From Desulfobaccales bacterium (GTDB taxonomy: Bacteria; Desulfobacterota; Desulfobaccia; Desulfobaccales; 0-14-0-80-60-11), in assembly GCA_030694005.1 (NCBI GenBank), contig JAUXZG010000138.1, forward strand, positions 1 to 38,785: a stretch of 38,785 nucleotides of DNA, given 5' to 3'. Below are positions 25,856-29,552 of the stretch, one piece after another. The position numbers were made by a program, and so were the translations under genes. How positions within the stretch are numbered: the first letter of the stretch is position 1; each line of letters begins with the position of its first letter. The notes below the pieces were generated by a model that worked only from the letters and a program-made list of their open reading frames with translations, did no database searches and was not told where the DNA came from.

Positions 25856-25875
25856 TTTTCGGTTTTCGGTATTTT

Positions 25876-27345
25876 TTAGGGGAATTTCCCTGCCGTTATT
25901 AATTTTTCTAGACCATCAATAACTTCTTTTTCAATCTGATTTGCCTCTTCCTTTTTCTCAAATGCTTGTTCTACGAGGGTACCGATGCGCTGTTGAACCT
26001 CCAATGGCGCATTAGGAACCCAAACTTCAGCAGCATCATTTTCGGTTAGTTCGTCCACAACGCCGCCATAAATCTTGCTGGTCAATTGATGCTGGCCATA
26101 AGGGGTTGATAGAAATGCAGCGAGATAGCCCGGATGCGTATTTAACAGATTAGCAATAATTCTTAAGATATGCTGTGATGCTGCCCAGCCATCCATTGCG
26201 GTTGGCGCTAATGCGATGCGCCCGATAGTGCCTGAACATGTTATCAGCAACCAGCCTTTATTAATTATCCAGGGAGATAAGTTAGGATGTGCCCGCCGAG
26301 AAAGATATTTTAGGTCATAGGGTTTCATCATCGGAAGGTGGGAGCCTTGCAGAAAAGGTATCCCATGCTCGGGGGAGACATATATACGCCTGAAGCGTGG
26401 GGGAATCAATATGTGCTCTGTCAGATCCGTATCCCCTAATTGCTTCAGCAAATACTTTCCCGTGCGCAATTGTTCAATTGCGGTCTTAGCTATTGGGAAA
26501 TGAAACGATGCGTCGAAGCGTCCATCAAGTTCAGAAGCTTTAAGGAGGAAACTCTTAGGCTTAGTAACACCACCAAAATAAGAGACCTGGGAATCATCAA
26601 ATCGTTGCAAGCCTAATTCCGCATGTAATAGTTCATCAGCTCGGTCAAGTAATTCATTGGCTTCATCCCTGAGATAATAAGCCTTCGTGATTTTCTTATG
26701 AATGGCCTGTTGCTTATCATCGGGCAAAAGGGGTACCGGAATTTTCTCTAGATGGGAGGGTTCAAGATGTGAAATAGTCCCCCCATACTCTTCTTTAAGC
26801 ATCAGAGCTTGCCCTAACCATGTAGATAGAAAAGCATAAATAAAACCGGCGGGCAGAGAAGGAATAATCCGGATTAAATCATGGGTCAGGAAATATGGCT
26901 CCATTCTCTTGGTCACAAGGACGCACCTGCCAAGGGTGCCGGAACATGAGACCAGAATCCACCCTGCTTTTGCAAAATAGCGTTCGGCTGGGGATGGAGC
27001 CTTATCACGGGCAATCCAACGATTGCTTTGCAATCGAAACATAAATGTTTCTGAGGCACTCAGGTAGGGATACCCAATATCAGGGTTTGAAGTATAAATC
27101 CGTTTAAAACGGTATAAATTATAGATTTCCTGGGATACATCAGGATTGCCCAGATTTTTTAACTGGAATCCTGATTCCTCTAATAGATGTCGAGCCCTAA
27201 CAGCTTCATCAGCATGGAAAGATGCATCCAGCCTTAAATCACCCTCAGAGAGCCAATGTGCATGAACCGAAAAAGAGCAGACTTTGGACTCAGAGACGGG
27301 TAATGTCTCAGCGGGGGGTGATGTTAATACTTCTCTTTTAACCAT
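25876..27345 (-). CDS. hsdS: Type I-like DNA specificity subunit (HsdS/BcgI-B type)
   Basis: A 489-residue specificity subunit with two target-recognition domains separated by helical spacers, reading the DNA site for the methylase encoded upstream. The two halves are repeats: first AKAGWILVSCSGTLGRCVLV and FLSTWLGQALMLKEEYGGTI, second INKGWLLITCSGTIGRIALA and FLSTPYGQHQLTSKIYGGVV. Each half ends in a coiled helix (EANELLDRADELLHAELG; EEANQIEKEVIDGLEKLI). The start is ATG 27345, not the frame start at 27378: a full AGGAGGTGA site lies 5 nt upstream and overlaps the TGA of the methylase gene, so translation is coupled. Base composition is more AT-rich than in the neighbouring genes, suggesting acquisition by transfer. 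No separate hsdR is present. Confidence 0.9.
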   Translation of the reverse strand: MVKREVLTSPPAETLPVSESKVCSFSVHAHWLSEGDLRLDASFHADEAVRARHLLEESGFQLKNLGNPDVSQEIYNLYRFKRIYTSNPDIGYPYLSASETFMFRLQSNRWIARDKAPSPAERYFAKAGWILVSCSGTLGRCVLVTKRMEPYFLTHDLIRIIPSLPAGFIYAFLSTWLGQALMLKEEYGGTISHLEPSHLEKIPVPLLPDDKQQAIHKKITKAYYLRDEANELLDRADELLHAELGLQRFDDSQVSYFGGVTKPKSFLLKASELDGRFDASFHFPIAKTAIEQLRTGKYLLKQLGDTDLTEHILIPPRFRRIYVSPEHGIPFLQGSHLPMMKPYDLKYLSRRAHPNLSPWIINKGWLLITCSGTIGRIALAPTAMDGWAASQHILRIIANLLNTHPGYLAAFLSTPYGQHQLTSKIYGGVVDELTENDAAEVWVPNAPLEVQQRIGTLVEQAFEKKEEANQIEKEVIDGLEKLITAGKFP

Positions 27346-27350
27346 CACTA

Positions 27351-27359
27351 TCACCTCCT
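27351..27359 (-). promoter_or_regulatory. Shine-Dalgarno AGGAGGTGA overlapping the methylase stop
   Basis: The site contains the stop codon TGA of the methylase gene itself and sets the start of hsdS at 27345, implying coupled translation and fixed stoichiometry of the two subunits. Confidence 0.85.
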
Positions 27360-29279
27360 GGCCGAATCCTGCCACCATTTCTGGAATAGCCCGGCTACCA
27401 GAGACACATCATCATCCCGAACCCGGCGAAGCTCCCGTTTTTGTTCGACTACCTTAACCCCGTCTGGTGTCCGCCTGATGGTGGGGATGGTCATTTCTTG
27501 CTCAATAATCTCCCCCTCAGGGGTTCGAATCCATAAATCATTACCCCGGCGGTCGTAGCCCATAGTTTGACACAGGGCCATAAAGACTTCATAATTTTCA
27601 AGCTGTCGGGCGGCTTCTTCAAGGCGAATTTTTTCCTCCGGTTTCTTCCTTAAAACTAAGACACTCGTTTGAGTCCCGGTGCCCCCGAATGCCAGAAAGG
27701 TTTCTACGGGTAAATCAATGCTGGAGATAATCTCACAGCGCTTTAAAATCCATCGCCTGATAAAAACCAAACCAGGGTTGCTCAGTATGCTATCAGGGAG
27801 AACAATGGCCAGCCGTCCACCCGGCTTAAAAAACTGAAGGCATCGTTCAATAAATAATTGCTCAGGCGGCATGGCTCCCCGAGGGGCATTGGCCCCAAAA
27901 CGGGTAAGCTCAAATTGGTCTAAAATATGGGGGTCATCTACCACTAACCCAGGCCCAGCGCCGAAAGGCGGATTGGTGAGCACAATGTCGAAAGCACCCA
28001 GCGGAATTTTGGCTTTAACATCATCCCGCCACTCCCCAGGAGGAAGAAGAGAGTTAGCCTGGAAGACATTGGTGCTGCCATTCCCGTGCATGACTAAATT
28101 CATTTGGGCGGCTCGCACCAGGTCAGGATTAATGTCTATGCCAAATAAATTGAGGTCACAGCATTCTTTTAACCTTCCAGGGGTCCATTTCTGAGCTTCA
28201 GCTTCAGATTTCCATTTTAATTTTTCTTGGTCAGAGATGAGGTTTCGCCAATGGTTTACGGTGGTTCGTAGAAACCCCCCTGTCCCACATGCTGGGTCAA
28301 GCACCCTTAATCCCAGCCAGCGGTCTTTGGGATAGGAAGAGAAGACCATCTCAACTGCCATTCGACAGATATTGGGAGGAGTAAAAAACTCGCCCCGTGC
28401 CCCACGCAAATTTTCTCGGACTATTTCCTGATAGGCTTCTCCCTTAATATCGGCTGCGGTTTGCAATAAAGAATATCGGCGTAGCTCACTCACGATATAG
28501 GCGAGAACCCGGTTATCAAGTTTAATTCGGTCGTGCTCACCAAAGATATAAGGGTAGCGCCTTTCAACTTCGCCGAATAAATCAGTTATCCGCTTATGGA
28601 GGCGGCGTTGGCCGACTTCTGAGCGTCGTTCTTCAGTTGTAACATCAAAGCGCATCTCACCTTCTGTGTTTTGCTCGTCATAAACCTTACAGAAAATCAA
28701 TTTAAGGAGTTCATGAAAGGCTTGGTCTTTTGGGAGGCCCTGATTAGCGTAAATATAATTGTGGCAACGCCTGAAGACATCCCGCAAGCCTTCGGCGGGA
28801 AATAATTGGTCAAAGGTGATACGGGGAGGTTGGGTCTTCCCGTAAGGCGGAATATCGGCAATGTCAACTGCCCGCCGTTCCCCTTCCTCAAGGGTCATTT
28901 CATATGCCTGTAATTCAGAGCCTACCCATAACCCCCACTTCCCGTTGGGAGAAGCGGCGAGGTAGGACTTTAATTGGTCAACTCCGTTATCCCGGTCGGT
29001 AGGTTTGACCTCTTGAGCTTTAGTCTCGGCAATAATCTTAATTGTCTCTTGAGAATGAGTTTCATTGGGGGTAAAAATTGCGATGTCAGCCCGCTTTCTT
29101 GCCCGCCCCACGGAGATGCGAAATTCAAGCTCAATATCTTCCCTTGGATAGCCGTATTCCTCAACGAGGCTACGGGCTACACGCTGGCGAACATTCTCCT
29201 CAGGGGTATCATTTCGCAGTTTTCCCGTGATGTAGCAGCGGATTTTCCCCGCCGGTATAAAAGCTATTTCGCTGCTCAT
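27351..29279 (-). CDS. N6-adenine DNA methylase with N-terminal HSDR_N-like nuclease domain
   Basis: A 642-residue protein joining two functions. Residues about 20-130 resemble the N-terminal nuclease domain of type I restriction subunits: TPEENVRQRVARSLVEEYGY, RADIAIF (Asp65) and IIAETKAQ (Glu85, Lys87), which fit a PD-(D/E)xK site. Residues about 165-590 are an HsdM-type methylase: ARGEFFTPPNICRMAVEM, SAM motif LDPACGTGGFL (about 327-337) and catalytic NPPF (about 436-439). With the specificity subunit immediately downstream, the pair could both cut and methylate, as in BcgI-type systems; alternatively the nuclease fold only aids DNA binding and an HsdR lies elsewhere. ATG 29279 is preferred to GTG 29288 because AGGGTG lies 6 nt before it. 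AT-richer than its surroundings. Confidence 0.88.
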   Translation of the reverse strand: MSSEIAFIPAGKIRCYITGKLRNDTPEENVRQRVARSLVEEYGYPREDIELEFRISVGRARKRADIAIFTPNETHSQETIKIIAETKAQEVKPTDRDNGVDQLKSYLAASPNGKWGLWVGSELQAYEMTLEEGERRAVDIADIPPYGKTQPPRITFDQLFPAEGLRDVFRRCHNYIYANQGLPKDQAFHELLKLIFCKVYDEQNTEGEMRFDVTTEERRSEVGQRRLHKRITDLFGEVERRYPYIFGEHDRIKLDNRVLAYIVSELRRYSLLQTAADIKGEAYQEIVRENLRGARGEFFTPPNICRMAVEMVFSSYPKDRWLGLRVLDPACGTGGFLRTTVNHWRNLISDQEKLKWKSEAEAQKWTPGRLKECCDLNLFGIDINPDLVRAAQMNLVMHGNGSTNVFQANSLLPPGEWRDDVKAKIPLGAFDIVLTNPPFGAGPGLVVDDPHILDQFELTRFGANAPRGAMPPEQLFIERCLQFFKPGGRLAIVLPDSILSNPGLVFIRRWILKRCEIISSIDLPVETFLAFGGTGTQTSVLVLRKKPEEKIRLEEAARQLENYEVFMALCQTMGYDRRGNDLWIRTPEGEIIEQEMTIPTIRRTPDGVKVVEQKRELRRVRDDDVSLVAGLFQKWWQDSARR

Positions 29280-29443
29280 AGAGATCACCCTTCTTGCTCC
29301 CTTTTCGGTTTAACTGGAAAGTAAGTGCATAATAATAAAAAACTGTAATTTTTGACAGGGAATTAGGAGGGGAGTTTGAGGGGAAGGCGGGGCCTGTGGC
29401 CCTGCCTACCCCAAAAAACTTATGCGGGTTGGGAGGGGGGTGT

Positions 29444-29487
29444 GGGGGGAGATTGTAAGCGGACCTCAGGTCCCTGGCCCTTCCCCC
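29444..29487. repeat. GC-rich palindromic repeat, inverted TTGTAAGCGGACC core
   Basis: GGGGGGAGATTGTAAGCGGA facing TCCCTGGCCCTTCCCCC, with the inner pair GGACCT/AGGTCC. Variant of the core at 19087-19132. It lies between the methylase promoter region and the rex terminator. Confidence 0.75.
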
Positions 29488-29493
29488 ACAAAG

Positions 29494-29535
29494 AAAAAAG
29501 GGGGCTGGGGAACGAAGTTCCCCAGCCCCCTTTTT
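29494..29535 (-). terminator. Intrinsic terminator of rex
   Basis: A perfect 14-bp stem (GGGGGCTGGGGAAC at 29500-29513, complement at 29517-29530) with a 3-nt loop, flanked by six A's and five T's, so on the minus strand a U6 tract follows. It can work in both directions. Confidence 0.9.
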
Positions 29536-29552
29536 AATAATTCTTAATCCCC

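Follow-up and report, generated by a model that had tools for sequence, protein, structure and literature searches.

A putative two-gene restriction-modification enzyme of the BcgI/BsaXI kind in a Desulfobaccales genome

Organization of the locus

The window (the whole 38,785-nucleotide stretch of contig JAUXZG010000138.1, from a Desulfobaccales draft genome) contains two adjacent genes on the minus strand, coding for a protein that we call M and for a specificity subunit, S (Table 1). M has a composite layout, in which an N-terminal PD-(D/E)xK nuclease domain is followed by a helical connector, an N6-adenine methyltransferase domain and a C-terminal helix. The first-pass annotation of this DNA had already placed an N6-adenine methylase behind an HSDR_N-like domain, and both domains score above the Pfam cut-offs in M (HSDR_N_2, 69 bits for a cut-off of 25; N6_Mtase, 98 bits for one of 20.4). 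Translation of M most likely begins at the ATG at 29279, about 8 nt downstream of AAGAAGGG, and this ribosome site encloses the GTG at 29288. Pfam detected no helicase or translocase domain in either M or S, and a search of the genome gave no second relative of M.

The second gene was correctly described at the outset as a two-repeat specificity subunit, since two regions of S match Methylase_S (64 bits, Pfam cut-off 22) and the protein contains an internal repeat. Its annotated start is the ATG at 27378 (ORF 25876-27378), overlapping M. The ATG at 27345 is preferable, giving a protein of 489 aa and having AGGAGG 8 nt ahead. The position of this AGGAGG at the TGA stop of M, together with the ATG at 27345, indicates that S is translationally coupled to M, as had been proposed, with the start of S now refined.

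Table 1. Features of the M and S locus, in coordinates of the window.
Feature	Position	Strand	Evidence
Inserted stretch between convergent uvrA and rex	25856..29552		Gap in relatives, GC profile
Specificity subunit S, 489 aa, two target-recognition repeats	25876..27345	minus	Methylase_S, NCBIfam MAD5, internal repeat
AGGAGG ribosome site directly before the TGA stop of M	27346..27360	minus	Read from sequence
RM subunit M, 642 aa	27351..29279	minus	Pfam HSDR_N_2 and N6_Mtase; AlphaFold; BsaXI as top full-model fold match
N6-adenine methyltransferase domain of M	27625..28454	minus	N6_Mtase, 98 bits; motif I DPACGTGGFL, motif IV NPPF
Nuclease domain of M, about residues 27-150	28830..29201	minus	Core E27, D65, E85, K87, Q102

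Fold and active site of the nuclease domain

We have modelled the N-terminal domain with AlphaFold (residues 1-161, 16 sequences; pLDDT 91). The model consists of a helix (26-40), three strands (49-57, 60-69 and 80-86), a second helix (93-109) and a last strand (115-119), and this predicted order (helix-strand-strand-strand-helix-strand) is that of the PD-(D/E)xK fold. Asp65, Glu85 and Lys87 had been assigned to PD-(D/E)xK positions from the letters alone; the residues are exact, and the remaining motif positions are E27 and Q102. In the model E27 belongs to the first helix and Q102 to the second, and D65 and E85/K87 lie on or at neighbouring strands, so that structure prediction returned both the fold and the expected Asp/Glu/Lys arrangement. 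When this domain was compared with the PDB by Foldseek, the type IIB enzyme BsaXI was the top match (E 8.5e-5) and the only one below 0.001, followed by a Vibrio HsdR fragment and then by Cas4.

BsaXI (RM + S; PDB 8w0p, 8w2p and 8w2q) has the same arrangement as M and S, namely a nuclease, connector and methylase in one chain and a separate S, and it is the best PDB match to M by both fold and sequence. The model of full-length M (pLDDT 73, i.e., moderate confidence) matched BsaXI with an E value of 2.9e-22 over about 620 columns, with type I HsdM next (5.5e-11), and phmmer gave 113 bits for BsaXI versus 66 for type I HsdM. D65, E85 and K87 of M align in register with the catalytic D90, E105 and K107 of BsaXI, the profile score of the N-terminal domain being weak when taken alone (E 0.054) and its identity to that of BsaXI about 20%. 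In BsaXI, replacement of D90, E105, K107 or E73 by alanine abolished cleavage (PMC11997821). All five core residues of M are invariant in 19 aligned N-terminal domains that are 31-77% identical to its own, and by this conservation the PD-(D/E)xK site is intact. A paper on a Campylobacter 'HsdR N-terminal domain' was also considered and set aside, as it concerns another protein.

Distribution and acquisition of the pair

The core clade comprises 35 stand-alone loci, from Chloroflexota, Bacillota, Methanobacteriota, plasmids and viral contigs. Every one of them has homologues of both M and S, and any other gene family occurs in three of them at most. Relatives of M are found in Chloroflexota, Bacillota, cyanobacteria and Methanobrevibacter (Methanobacteriota), in viral contigs, and on plasmids of Tessaracoccus, Paenarthrobacter and Skermanella, where they are annotated as 'N-6 DNA methylase'. 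The pair also appears in the Mycobacterium prophage prophiGD51-2. The closest M (locus L001, 79% identical) comes from a contig titled Dehalococcoidia and has different neighbours; for the L001 pair the identities are 69-79%.

At our locus the genes uvrA and rex are separated by 3.7 kb, while in four other members of the family (G008, G001, G011 and G004) they are likewise convergent, lie some 0.25-0.6 kb apart and have no pair between them. The GC content of the M and S stretch is also lower, ~45-49% (about 47%) versus 53-65% (about 58%) in most of the flanking 500-bp windows. The short gap in the relatives, the lower GC and the different neighbourhood of the closest M taken together indicate that the pair was horizontally acquired and inserted as a unit.

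Some copies are broken, although they are outnumbered by the intact ones. In G004 (L038:7188-10064) M begins near residue 234, lacking nuclease and connector, and is followed by two half-length S genes; no convincing nuclease remnant was found beside this truncated gene. The Methanobrevibacter copy of M is frameshifted between the nuclease and methylase domains (L010:9974-11787), and insertion elements apparently interrupt two cyanobacterial M genes (L011 and L012) and a Bacillota S gene (L105:11293-12473). Half-length S subunits with one repeat were seen at L004:11925-12971, L005:11934-12698, L113, L125 and L127, and in three viral contigs the half-length S precedes M rather than following it.

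Retention and loss of the nuclease site

Methylation-associated defence (MADS) is a multi-gene phage-defence system. Its MAD2 protein is homologous to M over the full length and its MAD5 to S, which passes the NCBIfam MAD5 model (406 bits, cut-off 400); M matches the MAD2 model end to end with 590 bits, below the cut-off of 720. MADS has in addition the MAD6 kinase, MAD7 and further genes, whereas the neighbours of M and S are uvrA and rex. Operons with a MAD6-type kinase and MAD7-like genes were identified in G063, G403, G313, G505 and G443 and on Piscinibacter, Hymenobacter and Bacteroides plasmids; the curated names MAD2, MAD6 and MAD7 were confirmed on example MADS proteins.

We have aligned 63 M proteins, 52 from outside MADS-type clusters (35 of the core clade, M included, and 17 more distant) and 11 MAD2 proteins from nine MADS-type loci. 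Most of the homologue searches used methylase peptides or the MAD2 model and were therefore not tuned to nuclease residues, although one of the six peptides in one search contained E27/E28. The set E27/D65/E85/K87/Q102 is complete in 52/52 proteins outside MADS-type clusters, at identities down to ~30%, and in 0/11 MAD2 proteins. In the latter E27 is replaced by K or L, E85 by I, L, V, S or Q, and Q102 by D, P, E, V, A or S, so that the nuclease site intact in M is dead in MAD2. As an internal control, the MAD2 proteins mostly keep the structural residues Q32, G116 and W118 as well as methylase motifs I and IV. Across all homologues motif I varies slightly and motif IV is conserved, except in a second MAD2 adjacent to the first at two loci (L067:6358-8391 and L099:9689-11713), which has NPWF at motif IV and CSCGTGTFL or CASGTGTFL at motif I; by these motifs the second copy is perhaps a double pseudo-enzyme partner.

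The mean ratio of N-terminal to methylase identity is 0.96 for stand-alone pairs and 0.77 for MADS, so that the two domains keep the same evolutionary pace in the former but not in the latter. Between M and its closest relative, nonsynonymous divergence amounts to 0.133 in the N-terminal domain and 0.123 in the methylase, with synonymous sites saturated. By these values the nuclease domain is constrained as strongly as the methylase.

In a tree of the methylase domain only, ten MAD2 proteins form one clade (99/98) and M falls among the stand-alone pairs. The eleventh MAD2, from viral contig L129, is placed outside the main clade with weak support, and a single clade is not rejected (p-AU 0.41). 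A double loss of the nuclease site in MADS, which the placement of L129 would suggest, is thus only a possibility. Judging by this tree, the 63 proteins are not independent cases, and the contrast of 52 versus 11 represents one or two events in evolution. Read with that in mind, the core residues kept outside MADS and lost within it indicate that the nuclease is retained where it is the sole candidate effector and was lost where other effectors took over. We regard this relation to MAD2/MAD5 as the best evidence that the nuclease of M matters.

Mode of action and alternative readings

M and S combine nuclease and methylase in one chain, an intact PD-(D/E)xK site and a separate two-TRD S, with no HsdR. 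We consider it quite probable that they make up a BcgI/BsaXI-like restriction-modification enzyme of type II (multi-subunit type IIG/IIB) that is complete in itself, with cleavage as a prediction. This had been the main proposal of the first-pass annotation, and it is now strengthened by the fold, the alignment with the BsaXI active site, the 35 loci that share these two genes only and the lack of a genomic hsdR (see below). By their description, BcgI, BaeI, CspCI and others also consist of two genes, RM and S, without hsdR (PMC3874165). Enzymes of this group have a 2RM:1S composition, methylate both strands and cleave the DNA to either side of a bipartite site (PMC3874165). Along these lines, two M chains would join one S as (RM)2S, and the two TRDs of S would recognise a bipartite site, at which the gamma-type methylase would place an N6-methyl group on one adenine per half-site. 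At an unmodified site the N-terminal PD-(D/E)xK domains would cut at a fixed distance with Mg2+ and without ATP-driven translocation, probably once two complexes meet. We infer cleavage by M and S in this way, and likewise their stoichiometry, cut position, recognition sequence and part in phage defence. Since two-sided cleavage is what defines type IIB, the firm part of our claim is limited to the pair probably working like a BcgI-type enzyme.

M and S also resemble HsdM and HsdS, the gamma-type N6 methylase and two-TRD S of type I systems (EcoKI, StySJI-like), and a type I system whose HsdR gene lies elsewhere in the genome or is missing from the assembly has therefore to be weighed. Type I HsdM has no N-terminal nuclease, whereas M already carries one, and type I systems need an HsdR with nuclease and translocase. 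We have searched the genome, a 2.62 Mb draft that is 94.7% complete and thus some 5% short, with the profiles PF04313, PF04851 and PF18766. Neither HSDR_N nor SWI2_SNF2 was found, and ResIII was limited to UvrB, Mfd, PriA, a DEAD helicase and one sub-threshold match, none of them HsdR-like. The initial remark that no hsdR lies near the pair can consequently be extended to the whole of this draft. SWI2_SNF2 is absent as well from the genomes of L001 and L008, and the neighbourhoods of the 35 loci have no hsdR in common. A type I system is thus very unlikely, and the type I variant offered in the first-pass annotation as an alternative, for which there is neither a helicase/translocase domain nor a partner, finds no support. 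Hardly more credible is that the pair is what remains of a MADS operon stripped of its other genes. The scores against the MAD5 and MAD2 models would agree with such an origin, but it was rejected by the intact nuclease core of M, by its place among stand-alone pairs in the methylase tree and by the genome, where a kinase query retrieved no MADS kinase and, at best, a generic 35-bit kinase match.

Two other possibilities concern the activity itself, and we hold both to be improbable. In one of them M and S would be a solitary methyltransferase that only methylates, the nuclease-like domain being structural or regulatory. The existing annotation and PADLOC (MTase_II, 452 bits) call M a methylase, and the fact that MADS keeps the domain without its active site makes a non-catalytic role conceivable, but the catalytic positions are invariant throughout the stand-alone proteins and are lost precisely where other effectors are present. 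In the other, the domain of M would cut, not as type IIB but as a one-sided or nicking type IIG enzyme or a modification-dependent nuclease. Cut geometry is not something that sequence can reveal, and M is minimal at 642 aa, lacking what makes the BsaXI RM longer (916 aa, including knob and paddle). Against this, separate two-TRD S subunits accompany two-sided BcgI-like enzymes in the described cases (PMC3874165).

Implications and variation among MADS clusters

As a BcgI/BsaXI-like enzyme the pair is probably ordinary in kind and mis-annotated in databases as a lone methylase. A whole family that is currently listed as lone methylases, with members in bacteria, archaea, plasmids and prophages, would then probably consist of complete restriction enzymes and, with two easily cloned genes per system, could be a source of new specificities. 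What adds interest to M and S is the sister lineage that lost its nuclease inside MADS. We lean towards the view that MADS arose from a stand-alone BcgI-like enzyme, with MAD2 as a pseudo-nuclease, restriction passed on to a kinase/ATPase module and the M and S components acting as a methylating self/non-self sensor; the pairs annotated as 'N-6 DNA methylase + S' would be the living active form. The contrast with MADS lends itself directly to testing how a restriction enzyme may become the sensing part of a larger defence system.

The MADS-type clusters themselves vary in composition. In L129 (2555-13918) the first gene matches MAD6 in part, scores as DptF-like and has no match to a kinase model; it is followed by a MAD7-like gene, an M whose nuclease site is dead, then S and a large gene, and the cluster is a kinase-less MADS-like variant. 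The slot between MAD2 and MAD5 contains either an AAA protein and a small protein or one gene of ~370 aa (L080:11953-13934, L068:12540-14530, L067:8379-9488 and L069:8195-9319), and it is empty in L082 and L083.
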